Notes under the pieces: model-generated
Seen by the model: only the letters and a program-made list of their open reading frames with translations
What the model was told of the DNA's origin: nothing
Database searches by the model: none
Translations under genes and position numbers: made by a program
Shown here: in pieces, positions 4,766 through 23,320 of the stretch
Numbering within the stretch: the first letter of the stretch is position 1
How the letters are laid out: the number at the start of each line of letters is the position of its first letter
IMG/VR virus record: IMGVR_UViG_3300034061_005199
Coordinates: 1 to 23,864 of that record
DNA length: 23,864 nt
Source of the DNA: a virus
Direction: 5' to 3' (one strand)

Positions 4766-7282
4766 TTACTTACCTTTATCTTCCTTTTTTTTAGAATTTT
4801 TAGGTTTTTTGATATCAACTTTAACATCTTCAATTTTGGTATTGTAAGAAATTGTGATTGTATCACCAATACTAAGTTCACCCTCGAGTACTTTTTCAGA
4901 AATTGGGTCTTCTACGTACTTTTGGATTGCTCTATTTAAAGGACGTGCTCCATATTTTTCGTCATAACCTTTTTCAACCAAATACTCTTTTAAAGTATCT
5001 TCAATTTTAAGGACATAACCCATTTCTTTAACACGACCAACTACTTCACTTAAAGGAATATCGACAATTCTCTTAATATTTTCTTTGTCAAGTGATTTGA
5101 AAACAATAACATCGTCGATACGATTTAAAAATTCAGGTGAAAAGGCCTTCTTTAATGAATCTTGTATCACACCTTCAGCTATTTCATCGTGAGCATTATT
5201 TTTAGATTGAGTACCAAAACCCACACCAGTTCCAAACTCTTGAAGTTTACGAGCTCCTACGTTTGAAGTCATAATGATAAGACAGTTTTTAAAATCAACT
5301 TTACGACCTAAACCATCACTTAAATGACCATCATCAAATACTTGAAGTAAAACATTAAAAACATCTGGATGTGCTTTTTCAACTTCATCTAAAAGAATTA
5401 CCGAAAATGGTTTTCTTCTAATTTTTTCAGTCAACTGACCACCTTCTTCATACCCAACATAACCTGGAGGAGCCCCGATTAATTTAGATACCGTGTGTTT
5501 TTCCATATACTCAGACATGTCAACACGAATTAAAGATTCAGGAGAACCAAAAATACTTTCAGCTAACATTTTAGCTAAGTGAGTTTTACCTACACCTGTT
5601 GGACCTAGAAACATAAAAGAACCTATCGGTTTCTTTTGGTTTTTAATACCTACACGATTACGTTTAATTGCTTTAGTAATTTTATCGATAGCATTATCTT
5701 GACCAATAACTTTAGTCTTAATTTCCTTATCCATGTTACGGAGTTTTTCATTTTCACTTTGTGAAACTTTAGTAACAGGAATACCTGTAACCATAGAAAC
5801 AACTTTGGCAACATCATCTTCATTAACAGTAGGTCTTACTCTATCAAGATTTTTGGCCCACTCATTAGTGGAATGTTCTAAATCATCTTGTAAATGTTTT
5901 TCTTCATCACGAAGTTTTGCTGCGTCTTCATAACGTTGTTGTTTTACAACTTCAATTTTTTGACGACCTACTTCAGCTATTTTTTCTTCAAGGTCAATAA
6001 TTTCTTGTGGGGGTTTAATATGAACTTGCATTCTAGCCCCAACCTCATCTAAAATATCTATAGCTTTATCAGGTTGTTCACGGTCACTAATATAACGGTC
6101 AGCTAAATTAACACAAGCCTCAATAGCTTCAGTTGTATAATTCACCTTGTGATGGTCTTCATACTTATTCTTAATGTTGTTAAGAATTATAAGTGTTTCA
6201 TCTTTAGAAGGTGGATCAACCACTACCATTTGAAAACGTCTAGCCAAAGCTCCATCTTTTTCAATATTCTCACGATATTCGTCAAGGGTTGTTGCCCCAA
6301 TACATTGAACTTCTCCACGAGCCAAAGCTGGTTTTAAAATATTAGAAGCGTCTAGAGAACCTGAAGCATTACCCGCTCCAACCATTGTGTGAATTTCATC
6401 AATAAAAAGAATAACATCATCGGCTTTTTCAAGTTCTTGCATGATACCTTTCATTCTTTCTTCAAATTGACCCCGATATTTGGTTCCAGCAACTAAAGAT
6501 GCTAAATCCAAACTTACAACACGTTTGTCAAAAAGAATACGAGGACATTTCCTCTCAACAATTTTAAGAGCTAAACCCTCAACGATTGCGGTTTTACCCA
6601 CACCAGGTTCACCAATAAGAATTGGATTGTTCTTTTTACGTCTTGAAAGAATTTGTGACACTCTCTCAATCTCATCTTCCCTTCCAATAATTGGGTCTAT
6701 CTGACCTTCAGAGGCAAGTTTTGTAATGTCTCGACCAAAATTGTCAAGTACTGGGGTTGTTGATTTACCTTGAGCAGCTTTTTTAGCTTTTTTACCCAAG
6801 TCGTCGATTTCTTCAAAGTCTCCTGTCATATTCATTATTTTTTGTTTCTTTAAATGTAATAAAGTTTCTTTAAAAGTTCTATAGGTAATACCCTGATTTC
6901 CTAAAACTTTTGTACCGTCTAACGATTTATTTTTTAAAATAGATAAAAACAAATGTTCCACACCAATAGAATCATCACGTAATTTATCAGATTCAAGTTC
7001 AGCGGAACTGATAGCGTTTTTTGATGACTCACTAAAAGGTACTATTTTTAGTTCTACAATATTAGGATTTTTTATTTTAAATCTCAAGTAACCTTCTAAT
7101 TTTTCCATCAAATCGTCAACATCAGAACCCATGGCCTCTAACACCTCAATTACTTGATTATCATCAAGGTTTAAAATAGAAAGTAATAGATGTTCGGGTT
7201 TTATTTTGTTTTCACCAAATCTTACTGATTCTTTAAAAGCCTCTTTCATTATAGCTTTTAAATTAGGCGTCATTTTTTTCAT
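4766..7282 (-). CDS. ClpC-type AAA+ protein unfoldase
   Basis: An 838-residue Hsp100 ATPase, normal length for ClpC. In order: two N-terminal Clp-N repeats (about 1-140), first AAA+ with GEPGVGKT (about 223-230) and LFIDEIHTMVGAG, a short middle region with a UVR-type stretch (QRYEDAAKLRDEE) that marks ClpC rather than ClpA or ClpB, and a second AAA+ with GPTGVGKT (about 559-566), LLDEVEKAH and sensor NRID. A GVGF loop (about 685-688), followed by the conserved LKKAFSPEFLNRID, is where ClpC docks on ClpP. The start at 7282 is chosen because GTTAGGAAA precedes it and the residues further upstream match no Clp; 7273 is the alternative. No clpP or adaptor is nearby. Role in infection (proteolysis or remodelling) is inferred. 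Confidence 0.92.
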   Translation of the reverse strand: MKKMTPNLKAIMKEAFKESVRFGENKIKPEHLLLSILNLDDNQVIEVLEAMGSDVDDLMEKLEGYLRFKIKNPNIVELKIVPFSESSKNAISSAELESDKLRDDSIGVEHLFLSILKNKSLDGTKVLGNQGITYRTFKETLLHLKKQKIMNMTGDFEEIDDLGKKAKKAAQGKSTTPVLDNFGRDITKLASEGQIDPIIGREDEIERVSQILSRRKKNNPILIGEPGVGKTAIVEGLALKIVERKCPRILFDKRVVSLDLASLVAGTKYRGQFEERMKGIMQELEKADDVILFIDEIHTMVGAGNASGSLDASNILKPALARGEVQCIGATTLDEYRENIEKDGALARRFQMVVVDPPSKDETLIILNNIKNKYEDHHKVNYTTEAIEACVNLADRYISDREQPDKAIDILDEVGARMQVHIKPPQEIIDLEEKIAEVGRQKIEVVKQQRYEDAAKLRDEEKHLQDDLEHSTNEWAKNLDRVRPTVNEDDVAKVVSMVTGIPVTKVSQSENEKLRNMDKEIKTKVIGQDNAIDKITKAIKRNRVGIKNQKKPIGSFMFLGPTGVGKTHLAKMLAESIFGSPESLIRVDMSEYMEKHTVSKLIGAPPGYVGYEEGGQLTEKIRRKPFSVILLDEVEKAHPDVFNVLLQVFDDGHLSDGLGRKVDFKNCLIIMTSNVGARKLQEFGTGVGFGTQSKNNAHDEIAEGVIQDSLKKAFSPEFLNRIDDVIVFKSLDKENIKRIVDIPLSEVVGRVKEMGYVLKIEDTLKEYLVEKGYDEKYGARPLNRAIQKYVEDPISEKVLEGELSIGDTITISYNTKIEDVKVDIKKPKNSKKKEDKGK

Positions 7283-7302
7283 TTTCCTAACTTTATTTAA
7301 AT

Positions 7303-7310
7303 GAAATATA
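7303..7310 (-). promoter_or_regulatory. Weak -7 box (TATATTTC) for the ClpC gene
   Basis: The minus strand has TATATTTC, one base from TAnnTTTG, 20 bases before the chosen start. No -33 element is clear. It is listed because each other main minus-strand gene has a box in this place. Confidence 0.3.
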
Positions 7311-7392
7311 TTTAAAAATAAGGGAAAGAAAAGTTTACAGAACAATTCCCTTTTATTGGTAAAATTATTAGTTTTAAATAAAAATTAGACAT

Positions 7393-12169: not shown

Positions 12170-12991
12170 ATGAAAAAGGCTACACAAATAAAAGAAATTA
12201 GTAAAGTTACTAAAAGTGATAGGTATGTAGATTTAACAGGTTTTAAAATGCAAGATGATTTAAATCCTAAAATTTGGGATAAAAATCAAAAATTACGTCC
12301 TGAAATTAGAAAAAACTTACTTAAAATTGCTGACGATTATATTGAAAGTTTAGAAATTGAAAATCTTGACATTGATGACGTTACTTTTACAGGTAGTTTA
12401 GCGAATTATAATTGGTCACAATACTCTGATGTTGATTTACACATTCTTATTGATTATAAGGAAATCCCTGTCGATGAGACCTTAGTTCAAGATTTTTTAA
12501 AATCTAAAAGTACGGCATGGAATCAAAATCATGATATAAAAATTTATGGTTATGATGTTGAACTTTACGTTCAGGATATATCAGAAGAACATGTTTCAAC
12601 TGGTGTTTATTCCATTTTAAAAAATGAATGGATAGTACAACCTGAAAAAAAAGTTATCACTGTTGATGATAAAAACGTAAGGCTAAAAGCTAATCGTATA
12701 ATGGATTCAATTGATGATTTATACGATGAAATGAAAAAATCAAAAAATTACGACGATGTTGTAATTAAATCAGATAAAATAAAAGATAAAATTAAAAAAA
12801 TGCGTCAAGCTGGTTTAGATGAGGCAGGTGAATTTTCAGTAGAAAACATGGTCTTTAAAGTATTAAGACGTAATGGTATGTTGGAAAGACTTTCTGATAT
12901 CAAAACTGTGGCTTACGATAAATCTGTTACGTTAGAAAATAACAGATATTTATATAAAAAAATATTAAAAAATGGCATGTCGTTGTTATAA
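12170..12991 (+). CDS. Nucleotidyltransferase-fold protein
   Basis: A 273-residue protein with the signature of the Pol-beta nucleotidyltransferase fold: TGSLANYNWSQYSDVDLHIL (about residues 74-93), that is GS (75-76) followed by the metal-binding D87-x-D89. A possible third acidic residue is in YDVELYVQD. The C-terminal half is Lys-rich and helical. Such proteins transfer nucleotides to proteins, RNA or small molecules; the target here is unknown. Similar genes recur in T4-like marine phages. Its last 20 bases overlap the start of the Cys-rich gene, and that gene's promoter-like box lies inside it. Confidence 0.75.
   Translation: MKKATQIKEISKVTKSDRYVDLTGFKMQDDLNPKIWDKNQKLRPEIRKNLLKIADDYIESLEIENLDIDDVTFTGSLANYNWSQYSDVDLHILIDYKEIPVDETLVQDFLKSKSTAWNQNHDIKIYGYDVELYVQDISEEHVSTGVYSILKNEWIVQPEKKVITVDDKNVRLKANRIMDSIDDLYDEMKKSKNYDDVVIKSDKIKDKIKKMRQAGLDEAGEFSVENMVFKVLRRNGMLERLSDIKTVAYDKSVTLENNRYLYKKILKNGMSLL
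12946..12953 (+). promoter_or_regulatory. ATATTTAT box for the Cys-rich genes
   Basis: AGATATTTATATAAAA lies 18 bases before the first Cys-rich ATG, within the coding end of the nucleotidyltransferase gene. Its flanks resemble the terminase box (GATATTTATATA). Confidence 0.45.
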
Positions 12992-13331
12992 AATAGTTCA
13001 AGGTGGCTCAGGAGCCTGTGACTTTGATTATATAGATTGTAATGGTGTTTCAGGTACAACTAGTTTTCTTGCTGAATCAACAAATTATATTTGTATTAGG
13101 TCGGTTACAAGTTCTACTTGTGATTCTTATACAGATAACGCACCTTGTTATAATGGTGTTTGTTTAACTGGTACAACTGACCAATTATTATACGGTTTAT
13201 TAAACACATTGGGACCTTGTCCTGATATCTGTGACGGAACAACCCCTGTTGGTGGTCCTGCTGGCATTGGCCTTGTTGATATTAAAACAGGTCGAGCTTT
13301 AAAACCTAACGGTGAATCTTACTTACCTTAA
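12972..13331 (+). CDS. Small cysteine-rich modular protein
   Basis: A 119-residue protein with ten Cys. One module (about 1-66: CRCYKI, DYIDCNG, YICIRS, APCYNGVC) matches the repeat unit of the next gene, and the C-terminal 50 residues (DQLLYGLLNTLGPCPDIC ... GGPAGIGLVDIKTG) match that protein's C-terminal tail. No signal peptide or membrane segment, so it is probably a virion or cytoplasmic protein. The next gene starts eight bases later. Being a one-module version of its neighbour suggests duplication and a shared partner or position. No known family is recognised. Confidence 0.8.
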   Translation: MACRCYKIVQGGSGACDFDYIDCNGVSGTTSFLAESTNYICIRSVTSSTCDSYTDNAPCYNGVCLTGTTDQLLYGLLNTLGPCPDICDGTTPVGGPAGIGLVDIKTGRALKPNGESYLP

Positions 13332-13339
13332 TTTAAAAT

Positions 13340-15490
13340 ATGGCCTGTAATCTCTATTCAGTTATACTACCACCCTCCAGTACTAATCAATACAACATTT
13401 TAGATTGTTCTGGTAATACACAATCAAAATTATATTTACCATTCGGTGGTGGTGAAATTAAATTTTGTGCTAACGAAATTGTAGAATTTACAGGAGCCAC
13501 ACCTTCTGTAACTTCAGGGGCTTGTCAAAGTAATTGTACATGTTTTACAACTAATTTATTAACAAATGAAAGTAATTTAACTAATTTAACTTATGTAGAT
13601 TGTAACAACAATTATTATGTTGATAAGGGACCTGCGTTTGCTCCTGATAAACAAATCTTAAATGCTCAACCAGGTGAATTTTTTGATTTTTGTGCTTTAT
13701 ATGTTTCTGTAAACACCAGAGGTTGGTCTGTTACTAATAATGGTGATTGTGAAACTGGTTGTACTTTTTGTCGATGTATAATTGTTAGTAATACAACCAG
13801 CGAACTGACCGAAAATTTTACTTATACTGATTGTAACGGTAGCCCAAATTTAGTCACACTTAATCCTAAAGAAACAATCACTTTTTGTGGGTTAGATACA
13901 GATATTACTGTTGCACAGTCTACCAACAATTTAGCGGTTAACTACGGTAATCAATGTGTTGATGATCCAGGTGCTGATTATCCTTTTAAATGCCCTTGTA
14001 AGTGTACAACATTTTCTAATGACACACAAGCGTATAATGATGATGTTTATTTACTTTATACTGACTGTGATAACAACACCAACACAATACAACCAAATAT
14101 AAGTACAAAATTTGAAACTATTACTTGTGTTCAAAATTTTGTGTCCATAATTCCTGGAATTCCGAATGATAGACCAGAACCAAATGCTTGGTCTGCAACA
14201 TATCAATCAGATTGTACAGATGGTTCGTGCCCTTGTTATTGTTATAGTATTTTCAACGATGGACCTGAATTTTCACTTGGTTATGTAGATTGTGGTGCAA
14301 CTGGAACAACAATTCATACTATATCAGGTTCTTCAAATACTTCTTTTTGTAGTCCTTCAATTATTACTCAACAAGACATAACTGAATTATCAACCAACAG
14401 CAAATTATACACAGGTAATACTTGTTCTAGTGGTAGTTGTGTTTGTAATTGTTATAGTTTGACAAATAATAATGGTTTTAGAACACAACCTAAATATATC
14501 GATTGTAACGGTAATTTACAAACTATATCATTAGAAGATGGGGAAACACAAAAAGTTTGTAGCATTGGTTTAAGTTATAGTGATACTGAAAATATAGATA
14601 TAATAAATGAAGGTCCTTGTATTGATGGTGAATGTCCATCCACACCAATAACTGGTGATTGTACTTGTTATTATGTTATATCAACAAATGGTCTTGAAAC
14701 TATAGATGTTTCAATAGTAGATTGTGACAATATTCCCAATGTTTTAACTTTAACAGAAGGTAAAGGTTTTTGTGCGAAAAGTTATATTTCAGCTAGTGAA
14801 GTGGGTAGTTTAATAGGTAGGAGTAATGGTTTATGTACAGGGGGTGAATGCCCTCAAAATGTTAATTGTTACAATATAGATGCTGGTGGAAGTTCAGATG
14901 TTCAAACATATTATATTGATCCCGAAGGAATTGTTAGTTTAATATCAGAACCTGGTCCCGTTAGTTTTTGTGCAAAAGTTGTTTTAACTGAATATGATAG
15001 TACGGGAAATCCTGTCGGTAATGAACTGGGTACTGTTACAAATACAGGTGATTGTATTTTTAACGAAACTGAAGGTCTTTATAACTGTCCGGCACCTTGT
15101 TATTGTCTTTATTCATTCAATTCTACGTTTGTTGATTACATTAACTGTAATTACGAATCTGTAACTTTATCTTTAAGTCCAGGATTTAATAAAATTTGTG
15201 CACAATCCGTGATTAGTTCTGATGGTACTTTTTTTGATAGTGGGTTACTTTGTGATAATAATAGATGTCCTAATTACTGTTGTAATTGTTATACTATTAC
15301 TAATTTAGGGTCAAGACCATTTATCGGTTTTACTTATTTAACATGTGATTTAACTATGTCAGAACCGTATGATATTCCGGCAAGTGAATCTTTAACAGTT
15401 TGTGCATTAAACGTACCTCCTGATGCTAATGGAGGGGCAGCCAGATATAGCGTGACTTTAAACGGACCTTGTTACAATGGACAATGTGTA
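13340..15490 (+). repeat. Ten tandem six-cysteine modules (protein-level repeat)
   Basis: The modules are diverged at the DNA level and are visible only in translation. The shared frame is CxC at the start, DC about 18-22 residues on, a single Cys after a further 16-30 residues, and a closing Cys pair usually spaced C-x(4)-C. Best-kept examples are modules 5, 6 and 7. Confidence 0.8.
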
Positions 15491-15637
15491 GATACAATGT
15501 CAATTCAAGATCAATTATTATATGACATTTTAACAACATACGGACCTTGTCCTGATATATGTTGTGGTAAAAACGAAGGTTTTGGTGGTCCAGTTGGTAT
15601 CGATATCAACGACATCAAATCTGGTAAAGTTCTATAA
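13340..15637 (+). CDS. Large cysteine-rich protein of ten repeated modules
   Basis: A 765-residue protein with about 60 Cys (roughly 8%). It divides into ten modules starting near residues 1, 66, 144, 220, 299, 369, 441, 509, 587 and 648, each 61-79 long, followed by a 48-residue tail. The module pattern is CxCY.I.N, then Y.DCnG, then a hydrophobic strand ending FCA, then G.C..G.CP, six Cys in the complete form; modules 1 and 8 have four. The tail (QDQLLYDILTTYGPCPDIC ... GGPVGIDINDIKSG) is shared with the upstream gene. There is no signal peptide. The bead-like, strand-rich repeats suggest an elongated fibre, decoration or adhesion protein stabilised by disulfides or metal; this is inference. 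No named family is recognised. Confidence 0.82.
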   Translation: MACNLYSVILPPSSTNQYNILDCSGNTQSKLYLPFGGGEIKFCANEIVEFTGATPSVTSGACQSNCTCFTTNLLTNESNLTNLTYVDCNNNYYVDKGPAFAPDKQILNAQPGEFFDFCALYVSVNTRGWSVTNNGDCETGCTFCRCIIVSNTTSELTENFTYTDCNGSPNLVTLNPKETITFCGLDTDITVAQSTNNLAVNYGNQCVDDPGADYPFKCPCKCTTFSNDTQAYNDDVYLLYTDCDNNTNTIQPNISTKFETITCVQNFVSIIPGIPNDRPEPNAWSATYQSDCTDGSCPCYCYSIFNDGPEFSLGYVDCGATGTTIHTISGSSNTSFCSPSIITQQDITELSTNSKLYTGNTCSSGSCVCNCYSLTNNNGFRTQPKYIDCNGNLQTISLEDGETQKVCSIGLSYSDTENIDIINEGPCIDGECPSTPITGDCTCYYVISTNGLETIDVSIVDCDNIPNVLTLTEGKGFCAKSYISASEVGSLIGRSNGLCTGGECPQNVNCYNIDAGGSSDVQTYYIDPEGIVSLISEPGPVSFCAKVVLTEYDSTGNPVGNELGTVTNTGDCIFNETEGLYNCPAPCYCLYSFNSTFVDYINCNYESVTLSLSPGFNKICAQSVISSDGTFFDSGLLCDNNRCPNYCCNCYTITNLGSRPFIGFTYLTCDLTMSEPYDIPASESLTVCALNVPPDANGGAARYSVTLNGPCYNGQCVDTMSIQDQLLYDILTTYGPCPDICCGKNEGFGGPVGIDINDIKSGKVL

Positions 15638-15739: not shown

Positions 15740-18274
15740 ATGAAAAATATAACAAATAAAGATTTACAAAGAATGATAAGTTTAATGGGTAATAAAAAAC
15801 CTATTACTGAAAATAAAATTCATTCATCTCTTGAATTAATCAAAAAATCTCCAAACGGCAAATATTATGGTGTTGTTAGAGAAACAAAAAAATACTATAT
15901 AAAAGAATCTAATGATGGTTCTAATTTTGATTTTATCGGCGGTGTTGCTAATAAAATTAAAAATCAGTTTGAATCTTACGAACAAGCTGTTAGAAAACTT
16001 AATTTAATGTTAGAAGATACTGATGTATTAACTCCAGACATTATTCAAGAAAAAAAGTTTGTTATTAAAACAAAAAAGAAAAAATCTGTTGAGCCTAAAG
16101 CTGAAGAAACACCTGAAGGTGGGGGTGATTTTAGTTTTGGTGGTGAGGAAACTGAAAGTGAAGAAGAAGGTGGTGATTTTGGCAGTGAAGAAGGTGGTGA
16201 AGATTTTAATTTTGGTGGTGAAGAAGAAACAGAAGAAAGTGATGAGTTTGGTGGTGAAGAAGAAACAGAAGGTGGAGAAGATTTTGAATTTGGTGGTGAA
16301 GAAGAAGAAAGTACTGAGGATACTGAAGAAGAAACCGACGAAGATTTAGATTTAGAAGACGAGGGTGAAGATTCTATTAAATACATTCAAAAAATGACTG
16401 GTAAATTAGGTCAAAAACTTAGAGATACTGAAGATTTATCATCGGATACAATGAAATGGGTTGCTAAAAGTGTTCTTTCAGCATTAGACCTTGACCAAAT
16501 GGATTCTGAAGATAAAAAAGATATTATTCGTACTGTTAAAAAGAAAAAAGAAGAAAGTTCTGACGAAGAATTTGATTTCATGAACGACAAACAAGTTATG
16601 TCAACACCAATCATGACTTATATGTCTAATGACGATATGGTCGATTGGAATAAATTGTCTGACCAAGAAAAGGCTCAAATTGTTAATAACGGTGATGATG
16701 ATTTAATGGATATGGAAGAAACAAACACTTGTTCACACTGTAATGGTTTAGGTCTTGATGATATGACAGGTGAAGAATGTGAGTGGTGTATGGGAACTGG
16801 TGTTGAAGACATGGAAGATTATATGATGGATTCAAAAGAAGAAGATGATATGTACGGACCTGGTGAAGATAAAATTGAAAGTGGTGAAGAAATATTATCT
16901 GATGATAATTGTTCTTATGGTAGTGACCGTAATCAACCTTACTATGGTGAAACTGAAATGGAAGGTTATCCAGGTATGGAAGAAGACTGGATGTCTGATA
17001 AAAAAGACTACATGTCAAGATTCGCTAAAAACGTTAAACGTTCAGTCCAAGGTAAAAAAATGGATGAAGAAGAACTTGATTCTCATTTAAGAAAAATTAA
17101 AAATAAATTAGGTGGTTCAGATATTAGTATAGATGACAATAAAGTTGTAGGTAGATTTGGTTACGTTGACGTAAAGTCTAATGGTTATACAGTTCATTTA
17201 GAAGGTCAAAAATTTGGTAAAACTTTTCAATTCAATGAATTAGGTAAATTACACGATTATGTTAGAGAAATGGGTGAAGATTATATGGATGACCCATATA
17301 TGATGCCTCAACCAGCTCCAGCAAGACCTCAGACAAGACCTGATACACCTACAAAACCTGCTAAACCAGGTACCGATAAACCAAGTCCTTCAAAACGTCC
17401 TTTTACACCTCCGCCTCATATTACACCTGGTGAAGAACCAAATCCTAAAGCAGGGTATGATGAATATGGTATGGAAAGTTACGGACCAACTGAAGGTATG
17501 GATTATATGGAAGATGATACTATAGAAATGTGTTCAGCCTGTGAAGGTAGAGGACATGAATATGGTCGTATAGGTTTTAATCATCAAACAAACCCTTGTA
17601 TTACTTGTGCAGGTACTGGTATGGTTCCTAGAATGGAAATTAATGGTGAGGTTGATGAGCCTTATACGGACGATACTAACCCTATGTACGGTAATCAAAC
17701 AACTACCTTACCAAAAGGTATGGGTACTAGATACCAATACAAAGAAAAATTTACTTTTCCATTTGGTATGGGTGAAAATAGTAAACGTAACAAAAAAACT
17801 ATTAAAGAAGACCATTTAAACAATAAAATGGCTTCTTATGAACAGGATATGGCTTACGAAGATGTTGAAGATATGGCTAGACAACACGGTATGGATGTTG
17901 AATTTTGTCACAAAGATATGGCTAAAGACCCTGAAGAACAAACCATTTATTTGGATTTAATGAAAAAGGGTAAGGTTGTGGCTAAGATTAGAATTAACAC
18001 GGCAGGTGATATTGAAATGGGTGGTATGAAAGGTAAAGTTTTTAAAGGTGAACCAGTTGACTCTCATTCAGATTTTGACGAAGTTTTAGATGAAAAAGGA
18101 ATAAAAATGATGCCTCAACCAGCTCCAGCAAGACCACAAACAAGACCTGAAACACCTGTTAAACCGGCAAAACCGGGAACAGATAAACCATCTCCATCTA
18201 AGAGACCGTTTACACCTCCGCCTCATATTACACCTGGTGAAGAACCAAATCCTAAGGCAAGATATAGAAGATAA
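15740..18274 (+). CDS. Large acidic protein with DnaJ-type zinc motifs, likely virion/assembly protein
   Basis: An 844-residue protein. Residues 1-100 hold a compact N-terminal part (SPNGKYYGVVRETKKYYIK, FDFIGGVANK) of a sort I associate with structural regions of large marine phages. Residues about 126-213 are almost all Glu, Gly, Asp, Ser and Phe with GGEE(E) repeats. Two pairs of CxxCxGxG zinc motifs follow: CSHCNGLG/CEWCMGTG (331-354) and CSACEGRG/CITCAGTG (598-627), four in all as in DnaJ. Each pair is followed about 570 bases later by a near-identical proline-rich block (521-571 and 790-840), the second ending the protein. Strong negative charge recalls head-assembly scaffolds, but no function can be assigned. 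It overlaps the next gene by one base. Confidence 0.78.
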   Translation: MKNITNKDLQRMISLMGNKKPITENKIHSSLELIKKSPNGKYYGVVRETKKYYIKESNDGSNFDFIGGVANKIKNQFESYEQAVRKLNLMLEDTDVLTPDIIQEKKFVIKTKKKKSVEPKAEETPEGGGDFSFGGEETESEEEGGDFGSEEGGEDFNFGGEEETEESDEFGGEEETEGGEDFEFGGEEEESTEDTEEETDEDLDLEDEGEDSIKYIQKMTGKLGQKLRDTEDLSSDTMKWVAKSVLSALDLDQMDSEDKKDIIRTVKKKKEESSDEEFDFMNDKQVMSTPIMTYMSNDDMVDWNKLSDQEKAQIVNNGDDDLMDMEETNTCSHCNGLGLDDMTGEECEWCMGTGVEDMEDYMMDSKEEDDMYGPGEDKIESGEEILSDDNCSYGSDRNQPYYGETEMEGYPGMEEDWMSDKKDYMSRFAKNVKRSVQGKKMDEEELDSHLRKIKNKLGGSDISIDDNKVVGRFGYVDVKSNGYTVHLEGQKFGKTFQFNELGKLHDYVREMGEDYMDDPYMMPQPAPARPQTRPDTPTKPAKPGTDKPSPSKRPFTPPPHITPGEEPNPKAGYDEYGMESYGPTEGMDYMEDDTIEMCSACEGRGHEYGRIGFNHQTNPCITCAGTGMVPRMEINGEVDEPYTDDTNPMYGNQTTTLPKGMGTRYQYKEKFTFPFGMGENSKRNKKTIKEDHLNNKMASYEQDMAYEDVEDMARQHGMDVEFCHKDMAKDPEEQTIYLDLMKKGKVVAKIRINTAGDIEMGGMKGKVFKGEPVDSHSDFDEVLDEKGIKMMPQPAPARPQTRPETPVKPAKPGTDKPSPSKRPFTPPPHITPGEEPNPKARYRR
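17300..17452 (+). repeat. Proline-rich direct repeat, copy 1
   Basis: 153 bases encoding 51 residues (MMPQPAPARPQTRPDTPTKP ... PPPHITPGEEPNPKA). Copy 2 starts 807 bases downstream. The ends of the two copies are identical, while the middle differs mostly at silent positions; only two residues differ (D/E and T/V). Confidence 0.92.
18107..18259 (+). repeat. Proline-rich direct repeat, copy 2
   Basis: The second 153-base copy lies at the very end of the same gene and is followed only by the residues RYRR and the stop, whereas copy 1 is followed by a Tyr/Gly-rich segment and the second zinc pair. Confidence 0.92.
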
Positions 18275-18690: not shown

Positions 18691-20435
18691 TGTCTAAAAA
18701 ATACATAAAAGAGGCTGACGAAAATTTTGATAGTAAAGTTGCTACCGTAGATGAAAAACTTAAAAACTTAAACGAAAAATTGATAGAACTTAATAAAAGA
18801 ATATCTAACAGTAAAACAGAAGCGACGGCAGCAAATTCTCAAGCTAATAAAGCGGTAGGTGTTAATCCTGAGGCTCAAACACAGGATAAAAAAATGAAAA
18901 TGGCACAAGCAGCAAAGTCAATAGCTGATTCAAGGTATTATCAAGAAGAACTTAAAAAAATTAAAAATGAGATTAGTTTGGTAAACCAAGAAAAATCTGA
19001 TTTATTAAAAAATAAAAATACTCAAACAGAAAATATAATGGCAAAATTAACAAAAAAAGATATTCTTAAAATGGTTGAATCCAGTGAACCCGCTAGAATG
19101 ACAAAAAGAGAATTAGTAGAATCTGTTACTAACAGATTGTTACTATCTGAAGATATGAATGACGATTTAAGACGTAAAATTGAACGTGGTGAACACGATT
19201 ATTCGGAACATATAGATCCTGAAACTGTTAAAAGAATGTCTGACGAAATTGTTAGAGCTGCCAAAGAAAATATTGAATCAAGAGGTGGTAGAGCTAATCT
19301 TGAGGGGGCTCAAGAATTAATGTCCCGTGGTTTAATGGGTGCTTTACAAAAAGAAGCTCGTCATAAAAGAGAGTTAGAACAATTAGCTATTAAATTGGTT
19401 AGTGAAGAATACGGTGTACCTGAAGATGCTGTTGATTTTGAAGCGACAATTACAGGTCATCCACAAATGCCAGGTGGACAAGAAATCCGTAAAACAGGTT
19501 TAAAAATGAGAAAAGGTGATAAGAGACCACCACAAGGTAAAACTGCTGAAGAACTTAAACCTAATGTTACAAAACGTAGATTAATGAATGCGATGATGCA
19601 TGGTGCAGCACGTAAAGGGCAAAATCTTTTCCATATGGCATCAGATGATTTACGTAGAATAGACCCAAGTTTAGCTCAAGATTATAGTAAACTTATGGCT
19701 GGTAATGATTTTATGTATTGGGCATTAAGTGATGATACAATTGCACAAGAAAGTGAAAGTGGTGTACATGCTGGACAAGTAAAAGTTAGTCTTGCCGGAC
19801 CAAAACCAAAAATTATTGCTCAAGGTATGACATTCCCTTTCTTACTTCATGAATTAACAAAAGGTGTGTTAGAATTAATTTCTTTACATGGCCTTGATGT
19901 TGATAAAGAAACAAGAGATTATGTTTTAGACAAAACCGATAATCTTGAATCTGAACCAATGGATATTCGTTTAGGTGTTAAAATTTGGGAAAAACTTTTA
20001 GAAACTATGGATGTTGACGCTTTACCTTATAAGGCTCAAATTTTTACTAGAATGTCTGAATTATCTCCTTCTGAATTTAATAACATTGTTAACGGATTGT
20101 TAAATGATTCTGAACAAGCAAAAGAAAAAGTTAGAGAGATTGTTTATGATGTTATTAGAGAAAATAATGAAGATGATGTTGAACAGGCTATGAAACAATT
20201 CCGTGAACCAGAAGGCCCAAGTCCTGATGATGAAGGCCCAGTAGCACCTGAAGGTCCAGATGATGAAGATGATGAATTAGCAAAACTTTTAGGTAAAAAA
20301 GGTGGTGAAGAAGAAGTTGACGACCCAAGAACTTGGTCTAAACGTGAACTTGAAAATGCTAGAGATGAGGCTTTAGATAATGAAGATTATAAAATGGTGG
20401 CTTTTTATCAAACTATTTTAGATGAAAAGTATTAA
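18690..20435 (+). CDS. Hypothetical 581-residue protein in the virion gene block
   Basis: The first 115 residues form a long Lys/Glu/Ala-rich coiled coil. Then comes AKLTKKDILKMVE and MTKRELVESVTNRLLL, short helical segments typical of large marine phage proteins; an ATG at 19038 could be an internal start. The central part holds GMTFPFLLHELTKGVLELISLHG (about 375-397), which contains an HE pair but not a full HExxH zinc protease motif. The last 80 residues are acidic and proline-rich and end with WSKRELENARDEALDNEDYK. No function assigned. The gene ends at a strong terminator, so it closes this transcription unit. Confidence 0.72.
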   Translation: MSKKYIKEADENFDSKVATVDEKLKNLNEKLIELNKRISNSKTEATAANSQANKAVGVNPEAQTQDKKMKMAQAAKSIADSRYYQEELKKIKNEISLVNQEKSDLLKNKNTQTENIMAKLTKKDILKMVESSEPARMTKRELVESVTNRLLLSEDMNDDLRRKIERGEHDYSEHIDPETVKRMSDEIVRAAKENIESRGGRANLEGAQELMSRGLMGALQKEARHKRELEQLAIKLVSEEYGVPEDAVDFEATITGHPQMPGGQEIRKTGLKMRKGDKRPPQGKTAEELKPNVTKRRLMNAMMHGAARKGQNLFHMASDDLRRIDPSLAQDYSKLMAGNDFMYWALSDDTIAQESESGVHAGQVKVSLAGPKPKIIAQGMTFPFLLHELTKGVLELISLHGLDVDKETRDYVLDKTDNLESEPMDIRLGVKIWEKLLETMDVDALPYKAQIFTRMSELSPSEFNNIVNGLLNDSEQAKEKVREIVYDVIRENNEDDVEQAMKQFREPEGPSPDDEGPVAPEGPDDEDDELAKLLGKKGGEEEVDDPRTWSKRELENARDEALDNEDYKMVAFYQTILDEKY

Positions 20436-20557: not shown

Positions 20558-23320
20558 ATGAGAAATATATTTTTGTTAGAAGAATTACTTTTAGAAAATA
20601 GAATAGATGATGTTAAAAAGAAATATCCTAACGTACCTTCTGAAGTTATAGAAGAGTTTGCTAGTAATGACCCTTCTGGTACCAACAAATATTTGGATTG
20701 GATGGTTTATACCAAGTCTATAGGTATTGGTACGTCAAATGTTATTAAAAATATAAATTTATTTCATAAAAACATTAACAAATTAACCAAAGAATTTTTT
20801 GATGAATTTATTAAAGAAAATAAATTTGAATGGTTACTTACTGATAACTCACCTGTAGCCAAAACTTTTCAAAATATTTATAAAAGTCCTAAAGATATTA
20901 ATACTTACAAAGATTACGGTATTGCTTCAGTAATTTTTAAATCTGTTGATAACGTGTTATCTAAATCTGAGGTTAAAAAATTAGAAGCAAATGTTTTATA
21001 CAACTCTGATGATTTATTAATCATGATTCCTAAATCACATAGAGCATCTTGTTACTACGGAGCTGGAACTAAATGGTGTACAACAAATAAAGAAAGTGAT
21101 AATTATTTTAAAAATTATACTAATAAAGGTACTTTAATTTATGTTATAAATAAAAAAGAACCTGAAACAAACCCTTGGTATAAAACTGCCTTTTTAATTG
21201 AAAAAGAAAATGGTAAAGTTCAAGCCTATGATGCTCCAGACCATCCGACCGATATAAATATTGCGGCAGAAAAATTAGGTGATAATTGGGGAATTATCAG
21301 AGACGTTATTGTAGAATATCTTTATAAAAATGAATTAAAAGGTATTGAAAACCTTTATTTTGGACAAGATTTGATTGCTTGGTTAGAATCCAAAGATATT
21401 GATCCACTTAAAACTTTAAATTCAAATCAATTAATTGAAAAATTGGGTCACAATACTTTAATATCTTATTTAAATAAAAGGGGTATTAATATATACGAAT
21501 ATCTACCGTATAGACAAATATTAGAAATTTATTCGATTCAAAAAATATGGGAAGGTTATAAAAATATCGGTATTAACCCGTTAACCAAAATGTTTATCAA
21601 ACGTAATGACGCAGACGATTTAATTCAGGCAATAAAAAATAAAACCATTTCTTTAGATGAGTTTTTACATTTAAGTTCTGACCCAAAATTTTTAGAATCT
21701 GTTTCAGGTGGTGAAGTACAAGGAACTAAAAACATTTTTACAATAATGAATTTGTTTTTTGGAAGTAGTAGACCGGACGATTGGATGAGTTCTAGAATAG
21801 CACCAGCCTTAATAGAATTATTTAACAATGATGTTGATTTGATATTTGGTTACGCTAAAAACATTGGGGTTAATCTTTTTCAAGCTTTAGATGTTAGGGG
21901 TATGAACCATCTTTTAAATAAAAAATTTGATTTTGAAAATGCTTTAAAATATACCTTACAAAATAAAGATTATTTAAAAAGTACTTTAGTTAATTACGGT
22001 TTTCCTAAAAAAGAGGTTATAGAATACATTTCTAAACAACCCAACGGAATAGAGTTATTTAAAGAATTAGTTGACAAGGACTTAATAAAAGATTTAAGGA
22101 TAGAAGAAGTTTTACCGTTTTTTAAAGATGACAGAAAAGAAGTTTTTTTATTTTGGTTAAAATCTAAATTTAGAGGCAGGTTTGATGTTGAGGATGTTTT
22201 GGATGCTGCAGGTCCCGAAATAGGTAAAGTTTTTTCAAACATAGAATCTTTTGAAGCTTTTATAAGTGAAAATTATTTACACAAAGATTACGATATTTTA
22301 AAATCTGTTTCCATAAAATCTTTATGGAAAAGTTTTTTCAACAAAGATTTTTATCAATTATATAAAACGTTTTTAGAAAAAGGTAGAGCTAATGAACTAG
22401 ATACTTTGATGTTGATAAAGGCTTATGAAGATGCTCCTGTTGAAGAGGGTACTGGGTTAAAAAATATTGTTTTAGAAAGAGCTCATTATGAATTAAAAGG
22501 CGATAACAGATGTAAATTAGAAACTAGAGACGGTGTTGATTATATCATTTTTGAAGATTTGGACCGTGTTTTAGGGTTATTTGATGATAATGCTGATTAT
22601 TACAGTGTCCTATCAAGTAGTTTTAACCCTGATACTTATGAAAATTTTTCTGATATAAGTTATTTTTTAGACAATGAAATCACAATTAAAGTAATTAAAG
22701 ATTACCTAATGGATAATTTTAGAGAAAAAAAGGTGGGTTTAAATTTAGACTGGTTGGAAGATTTTGATGATTTAGGTGATAGAATTAAAATAGACGACAT
22801 CAACGATAAATTTTATTTTAAATTATATGATGAATTAATTCAGGGGATGTCTGGTTATAATATATTAGTATTAGTTGAAAACTCACCTGAATTAAAAAAA
22901 CTTAAAGAAGTAATTGAATCGTCTTACAGTATTGTTTATAAAGATTTACTTAGGAAAGAACTTAAAGATGAGTTGACATCGAAAATGGAAGGTATTTTTG
23001 GTGATGATTTTATGCGAACTAAAAAAATTCAAAATAAATATAAAGAACCGAAAACTGTTTATGAATTTAGGTATGATTATTTAATGGATGATATTATCAC
23101 TTTTGCTGATGATTTTGTTTTTTATGAAGAAGAACTACCCAATTCGGTTTATGATTTAATTGTATCGTTAATGGAGAATAATAAAGGTAGGTTTGACGGT
23201 ACTGTTAGTTTAGATTTAGAATATGTTATGGAAATTTGGTCCCCGTATGAAAATCAGGAATTGTTTTTAGAAACTTTTACCAATGAACTATATCAAACCC
23301 TAAGTAAATCCGAAGATTAG
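20558..23320 (+). CDS. Large phage protein with a KWCT-motif domain, unknown function
   Basis: A 920-residue protein with no signal peptide. The N-terminus (FLLEELLLENRIDDVKKKYP, FASNDPSGTNKYLDWM) is of a kind recurring in large marine T4-like phages. Residues about 165-225 contain SCYYGAGTKWCTTN, then a YFKNYTNKGTLIYVINK strand and a TAFLIEKENGKVQAYDAPD strand, a small domain I recognise from phage proteins but cannot name; its layout is reminiscent of PcfJ-like domains. The remaining 700 residues are helical, Leu/Lys/Asp-rich repeats without motif. It sits between a terminator and the terminase gene with its own promoter-like box, so it is probably late. Function unknown. Confidence 0.75.
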   Translation: MRNIFLLEELLLENRIDDVKKKYPNVPSEVIEEFASNDPSGTNKYLDWMVYTKSIGIGTSNVIKNINLFHKNINKLTKEFFDEFIKENKFEWLLTDNSPVAKTFQNIYKSPKDINTYKDYGIASVIFKSVDNVLSKSEVKKLEANVLYNSDDLLIMIPKSHRASCYYGAGTKWCTTNKESDNYFKNYTNKGTLIYVINKKEPETNPWYKTAFLIEKENGKVQAYDAPDHPTDINIAAEKLGDNWGIIRDVIVEYLYKNELKGIENLYFGQDLIAWLESKDIDPLKTLNSNQLIEKLGHNTLISYLNKRGINIYEYLPYRQILEIYSIQKIWEGYKNIGINPLTKMFIKRNDADDLIQAIKNKTISLDEFLHLSSDPKFLESVSGGEVQGTKNIFTIMNLFFGSSRPDDWMSSRIAPALIELFNNDVDLIFGYAKNIGVNLFQALDVRGMNHLLNKKFDFENALKYTLQNKDYLKSTLVNYGFPKKEVIEYISKQPNGIELFKELVDKDLIKDLRIEEVLPFFKDDRKEVFLFWLKSKFRGRFDVEDVLDAAGPEIGKVFSNIESFEAFISENYLHKDYDILKSVSIKSLWKSFFNKDFYQLYKTFLEKGRANELDTLMLIKAYEDAPVEEGTGLKNIVLERAHYELKGDNRCKLETRDGVDYIIFEDLDRVLGLFDDNADYYSVLSSSFNPDTYENFSDISYFLDNEITIKVIKDYLMDNFREKKVGLNLDWLEDFDDLGDRIKIDDINDKFYFKLYDELIQGMSGYNILVLVENSPELKKLKEVIESSYSIVYKDLLRKELKDELTSKMEGIFGDDFMRTKKIQNKYKEPKTVYEFRYDYLMDDIITFADDFVFYEEELPNSVYDLIVSLMENNKGRFDGTVSLDLEYVMEIWSPYENQELFLETFTNELYQTLSKSED

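Follow-up and report, generated by a model that had tools for sequence, protein, structure and literature searches.

A Cys-rich modular protein pair sharing a C-terminal cap in the late region of a T4-like phage: candidate disulfide-stabilized surface fibers

The window, i.e., the whole stretch of 23,864 nucleotides analyzed here, is a fragment of a T4-like and probably huge phage. It harbors two adjacent genes, hereafter A and B, coding for Cys-rich modular proteins and placed between a nucleotidyltransferase-like gene and a gene for a Glu-rich protein. The features of the locus are given below (all on the plus strand); the Cys of a module are numbered according to the scheme C1-x-C2 ... DC3 ... 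C4 ... C5-x(n)-C6.

12170..12991, plus strand: upstream neighbor, nucleotidyltransferase-like (phrog_36119, E 3e-49; synteny), defining the syntenic slot and sharing 20 nt with the beginning of A
12946..12954, plus strand: late-promoter-like motif ATATTTATA, 26 nt ahead of A
12972..13331, plus strand: gene A (ORF), one Cys module and cap, 119 aa, 10 Cys
12978..13163, plus strand: Cys module of A, spanning residues 3-64 and modeled with six beta strands; its 8 Cys comprise the extra pair C16/C50
13170..13328, plus strand: cap domain of A, sharing 52-57% identity with that of B and with caps found on their own in other phages
13340..15637, plus strand: gene B (ORF and leave-one-out profiles), ten Cys modules and cap, 765 aa, 60 Cys
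13346..13528, plus strand: module 1 of B, 4 Cys, without C2 and C6
13535..13768, plus strand: module 2 of B
13769..13996, plus strand: module 3 of B
13997..14233, plus strand: module 4 of B
14234..14443, plus strand: module 5 of B, with a loop (14299-14334) variable among near-identical phages
14444..14641, plus strand: module 6 of B
14660..14857, plus strand: module 7 of B
14858..15097, plus strand: module 8 of B, 4 Cys, without C1 and C3
15098..15280, plus strand: module 9 of B, with an extra C647 at its end
15281..15499, plus strand: module 10 of B
15500..15634, plus strand: cap domain of B; unlike that of A, it has one Cys (C742)
15740..18274, plus strand: downstream neighbor, Glu-rich protein with two CxxCxGxG motifs (weak DnaJ zinc-domain match; synteny), the other border of the slot

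Both ORFs are intact, and B starts 8 nt past the stop codon of A; thus, the two genes probably form one operon. Their coordinates, lengths, and Cys counts agree with an earlier note on this DNA, which had reported a 765-residue protein with about 60 Cys beside a one-module relative. Cys account for 7.8% of the residues of B and 8.4% of those of A, versus 0.88% in the remaining ORFs of a 105-kb sister contig. Both proteins begin with MAC, directly at the first module, and neither has a visible hydrophobic N-terminal signal, in agreement with the lack of a signal peptide reported in the same note. The Glu-rich protein also carries a repeated Pro-rich PQPAPARPQTRP segment, its CxxCxGxG motifs being of the DnaJ type, and a phage-borne ClpB/ClpC-like chaperone ATPase is encoded at positions 4766-7345 of the window.

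The division of B into ten diverged modules of about 61-79 residues, already proposed from the letters of the sequence, was recovered by leave-one-out profiles for every module, A having one. For 10 of the 11 modules, none of 1000 full shuffles reached the leave-one-out score, and for module 4 of B one in 1000 did so; when the Cys were fixed in place, 0-2 of 1000 shuffles per module reached it. Since the modules score above nearly all of these Cys-fixed shuffles, the repeat represents more than Cys spacing. All eleven modules thus lie above the shuffles and belong to one family, which the module of contig L125 also matches (E 9e-4). The pairwise identity of the modules against one of them is only 23-30%, so that the repeats must be old. 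The idea that each module is built on CxC...DC...C...C-x(4)-C has to be amended: the repeat is real, but its pattern is not uniform. Module 1 of B retains C1, C3, C4, and C5, module 8 retains C2, C4, C5, and C6, and the remaining modules of B possess all six. The C5-x(4)-C6 spacing occurs only in A and in modules 4-7, 9, and 10 of B; modules 2, 3, and 8 have three, 11, and ten intervening residues, respectively. Outside the common six-Cys set, C647 and C742 are found in B alone.

The structure prediction proposed earlier was carried out on A with AlphaFold2, using a 20-row alignment (A6). The model has a mean pLDDT of 81, exceeding 90 over about residues 1-60, where the module is confidently modeled as an all-beta, six-stranded domain (strands 4-10, 16-21, 27-32, 36-42, 44-48, and 52-60); the cap consists of one helix (69-79) and, for the rest, of a lower-confidence chain. 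A Foldseek search of this model against the PDB gave no significant match. Among the non-significant ones, an 84-residue chain of an RcGTA capsid entry was retrieved with a probability of 0.60, an E of 1.1, and a TM-score by target of 0.37; from the entry title and the length, we take this chain to be, probably, the six-stranded jellyroll base protein. The Bacillus endospore appendage Ena, whose resilient fibers consist of small, disulfide-linked beta subunits, was matched weakly (E 1.6); it belongs to a different organism and assembly and is no relative on present evidence. In BFVD, the best matches have a probability of 1.00, E values of 0.01-0.07, and 18-27% identity, and range from 82 to 1322 residues. 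They are mostly uncharacterized proteins from uncultured tailed phages and are taken here as likely homologs of the module.

Sequence searches of A and B against Pfam, PHROGs, NCBIfam, and PDB sequences did not retrieve any match, and in tblastn searches of the INPHARED phages neither A and B nor a consensus module had an accepted one; a Gordonia phage match to the cap region of A (E 2) was taken as chance. The module profile had no match in huge-phage records of 634-735 kb or in 22 relative contigs, and the module was not found in bacterial and archaeal genomes. The pair can therefore still be called undescribed, as it had been at first sight, since none of the libraries searched contains a matching known family. 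The module search did yield relatives in phage contigs. According to module-alignment scans, five contigs of small phages (L185-L189) harbor the module, with 35-36% identity to module 6 of B over 40-42 residues. It lies in a protein of about 755 aa with two modules and Thr/Pro-rich linkers and without the cap, and two genes after it a tail tape-measure protein is encoded (phrog_25337, 2e-9). This protein shares with B the module C-x-C ... Y-x-D-C-x-G ... C ... G-x-C; unlike A and B, it embeds the modules in a larger protein of a tail cluster, in phages that are small, uncultured, and unrelated.

A feature missing from the earlier note is a C-terminal domain of about 50 aa common to A and B, 'DQLLY..L...GPCPDIC.G...GGP.GI...DIK(T/S)G', which we call the cap. 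A scan of viral contigs for the cap revealed it as a stand-alone protein of 58-60 aa in the same gene slot (L095/L122 and L055/L123), after a distant homolog of the upstream neighbor gene (L124), and in a different gene setting (L126); in L125/L138, the same slot encodes a 105-aa protein in which the cap precedes one module. Since it is found alone or N-terminal in these relatives, the cap is a unit in its own right, on which A and B carry strings of modules. Neither cap nor modules resemble known virion proteins in sequence, and the cap has no related chain in the PDB; a match to Tako8 (E 5e-11) was rejected, as it is a repeated 14-residue match within a designed propeller.

As for the genomic context, the pair is present at 99-100% identity in four further IMG/VR contigs, one of which is the 105-kb sister contig. 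Variants between the window and its near-identical sister contigs fall in short tracts (14299-14334, 17583-17707, 19298-19556, 20722, and 21865-22028), the first of which swaps one loop within module 5 of B. Downstream of the pair, the 105-kb contig encodes a T4-type terminase (phrog_2, 1e-46), a portal protein (phrog_213, 3e-61), a glutamine-synthetase-like protein, and a capsid protein of the gp23 type (Pfam Gp23, 3e-69); close to the pair, no tail gene could be recognized. Proteins of the neighboring genes are 25-44% identical to counterparts in the huge-phage records LR745206 and LR756502 (634-642 kb). Relatives whose terminase is as little as about 60% identical keep the gene order nucleotidyltransferase, slot gene(s), Glu-rich protein, and terminase; most of them have, in place of A and B, a Cys-free protein of about 78-100 aa that models as beta strands. 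The idea that these are Cys-less homologs of A was dropped (hhalign probability 0.1; no common top fold matches).

The 105-kb contig has 21 copies of the motif ATATTTATA; for 17 of these, an ORF begins no more than 60 nt downstream, versus 0.8 expected, and the 17 include the copies ahead of A and of the terminase gene. Moreover, its 8-nt core ATATTTAT precedes the slot gene in 28 out of 28 loci examined, mostly at a distance of 20-27 nt. On this basis, ATATTTATA is a putative late promoter, with promoter-like behavior throughout the lineage. Together with the terminase, portal, and capsid genes downstream, the motif shared by A and terminase bears out the assignment of the pair to a phage late region.

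Some other observations concern the same contigs. The gp23-type capsid protein (L024:5832-7628) carries a Cys-bearing insertion, with relatives in L067, L069, L075, L080, L091, L093, and L097; full or near-full copies have 9 Cys and C-terminally cut ones 4, and the insertion is also present in relatives lacking the Cys-rich pair. It possibly provides capsid disulfides or a metal site throughout the lineage. The glutamine-synthetase-like gene (L023:13280-14431), identified by eye from sequence, lies within the head/packaging cluster and is retained by many relatives. About ten otherwise unrelated proteins of the 105-kb contig (L019-L024; ORFs including 4592, 18526, 22999, 33930, 34348, 95606, 98630, and 103652) begin with an MKNLIRKILKE-like peptide resembling the T4-type capsid-targeting propeptide with its LxE cut; such a start may tag proteins that are packed into the head. 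A and B as internal head proteins are disfavored, this type of N-terminus being absent from both. A paralogous family with an DPSGNNKYLDWM-like motif near the N-terminus comprises ORF 20558-23320 of the window and no fewer than five further ORFs on the sister contig, two members matching phrog_17056 (function unknown). Lastly, the nucleotidyltransferase gene ends in repeats resembling LYETHKRKVLTA, in part out of frame, directly before the slot gene (L055, about 4880-5430; L056, about 1650-2220).

The earlier note had left the role of the Cys between metal binding and disulfides formed after lysis. Every module has an even number of Cys, and one pairing, C1-C3, C2-C6, C4-C5, accommodates all the losses. 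The module of L125 has only C4, C5, and the extra pair otherwise found in A alone, and the first modules of the L185 type lack C6 and possess an extra Cys two residues past C4, the total again being six. The deviating modules are few, and, by simple arithmetic, random losses of the same sizes would be compatible with one fixed pairing or another in about 9% of cases; hence this pattern of paired loss and gain favors disulfides over metal in a supportive, not conclusive, way. That the Cys in A and B hold zinc or another metal in the cytoplasm, e.g., as a scaffold or a metal buffer, would be in keeping with proteins made in the cytoplasm with no signal peptide and with the CxC and C-x(4)-C motifs, and the adjoining gene does carry zinc-type CxxCxGxG motifs. 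However, Cys vanish two at a time, down to modules with four, which makes sets of 3-4 metal ligands unlikely; B has a single His, and neither protein matches a zinc-binding or other metal-site family, the module being a beta domain of about 60 residues. We therefore regard metal binding as very unlikely, and of the two roles proposed disulfides are the best fit: C1-C3, C2-C6, and C4-C5, as predicted from the pattern, plus a fourth in A. No match to an Erv/ALR thiol oxidase was found in the phage and its relatives, nor in control genomes, so that this negative is uninformative.

Three known systems are worth comparing. In Hoc, a C-terminal capsid-binding domain of about 96 aa (a four-stranded sheet plus three helices) lies beneath a string of Ig domains, and the protein sits in the middle of capsid hexamers; Serratia phage Muldoon possesses a ten-Ig-domain Hoc and a two-domain Hoc with the same anchor, and in phage PG7 the anchor is N-terminal (PMC10385173). 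A and B resemble Hoc in having small beta domains in a string on one C-terminal anchor, in long and short forms (ten modules and one, with the same cap), and in belonging to a lineage with a gp23-type capsid. On the other hand, their modules are Cys-rich and six-stranded, without sequence match to Hoc or Ig families (no Hoc-family Ig-like domain in Pfam, PHROG, or NCBIfam), and the cap, with about 50 aa, one modeled helix, and no sheet-plus-helix bundle, differs from the gp23-binding domain. As an analogy, the likeness is thus one of architecture only, membership in the Hoc family failing on both sequence and anchor. The head spike of RcGTA, a head-displayed polysaccharide binder, consists of a pentameric base with a six-stranded jellyroll (Rcc01079) and a separate fiber (Rcc01080) (PMC7296036); it is of interest for the non-significant Foldseek match of A to what is probably its six-stranded base, whereas a pentameric base with a separate fiber is unlike A and B. 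In the virion of Agrobacterium phage Milano, a disulfide network stabilizes the particle, and DTT weakens it (PMC10491603). Cys-rich proteins are common to both cases, disulfide-bonded in the mature Milano particle and here read from genes; the Milano links are mostly interchain (neck, collar, sheath, and capsid), in contrast to the intramodule set proposed for A and B.

Taking these data together, we give about even chances to A and B being late virion proteins that form disulfide-stabilized surface fibers, long for B and short for A, on a common anchor. A fiber or decoration hardened by disulfides, as suggested in the earlier note, best fits the even Cys numbers, their pairwise loss, the beta fold, the occurrence of modules within virion clusters of other phages, and the common cap; the location on the virion, the disulfides, the attachment through the cap, and the role in adhesion are what we infer from them. 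According to this fiber model, the modules would be beta domains of about 65 residues, each with about three intrachain disulfides, strung into one-module and ten-module rods, and the cap would be the attachment piece plugging both rods into the same kind of site. Given the lack of a signal peptide, the chains would be made reduced in the cytoplasm and would oxidize once virions are exposed by lysis, the outer modules offering their variable loops to the surface of the host or to the surroundings, much like Hoc on T4. What speaks for such fibers is the cap, common to A and B and, in relatives, either alone or ahead of one module, along with the T4-type head and packaging genes downstream, the promoter-like motif shared with the terminase gene, the confident beta fold, the BFVD matches, and the precedents of Muldoon Hoc and Milano; against them count the cap model, unlike the Hoc capsid-binding domain, the negative sequence comparison of cap and modules with known virion proteins, and the unrelated Cys-free protein that fills the slot in most relatives.

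That the site is on the capsid and not on the tail is only a guess from gene position, which here points to the head, while the small-phage relatives point to the tail. The same disulfide rods might indeed sit on the tail, in the baseplate or a side fiber, and bind receptors, as the module protein encoded two genes before the tape-measure gene and the B loop that differs among near-identical phages would suggest; yet the genes downstream are those for terminase, portal, and capsid, and trimeric fiber features (coiled coil, collagen, and chaperone) were not seen, so that we hold the tail site to be rather unlikely. The variable slot, occupied in relatives by unrelated small proteins as is often the case for accessory genes, could also indicate a non-structural late protein, acting at lysis or released, e.g., in binding extracellular polymers or against superinfection or host defenses. 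This we consider quite improbable: A and B have no match among defence systems, the module relatives sit in virion-gene clusters, the slot gene always has the late-type motif, and an anchor common to short and long forms suggests attachment to a particle.

Returning to the surface fibers, the module family is absent from the libraries searched, and the pair probably represents a new sort of modular surface fiber. More tentatively, and with clearly less than even expectation, A and B may embody an undescribed redox-set fiber, i.e., disulfide beta rods that stay soft until post-lysis oxidation, on a small exchangeable anchor domain with which huge phages would vary their display. This anchor, which occurs by itself, at the C-terminus, and at the N-terminus, offers a handle for naming many unannotated huge-phage proteins. 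The logic of the paired Cys, in turn, predicts a phage protein folding its disulfides after lysis, in a lineage with a conserved Cys-bearing insertion in its capsid protein. If true, this would be a second, apparently unrelated, answer to Hoc-type rod display on a T4-like particle.
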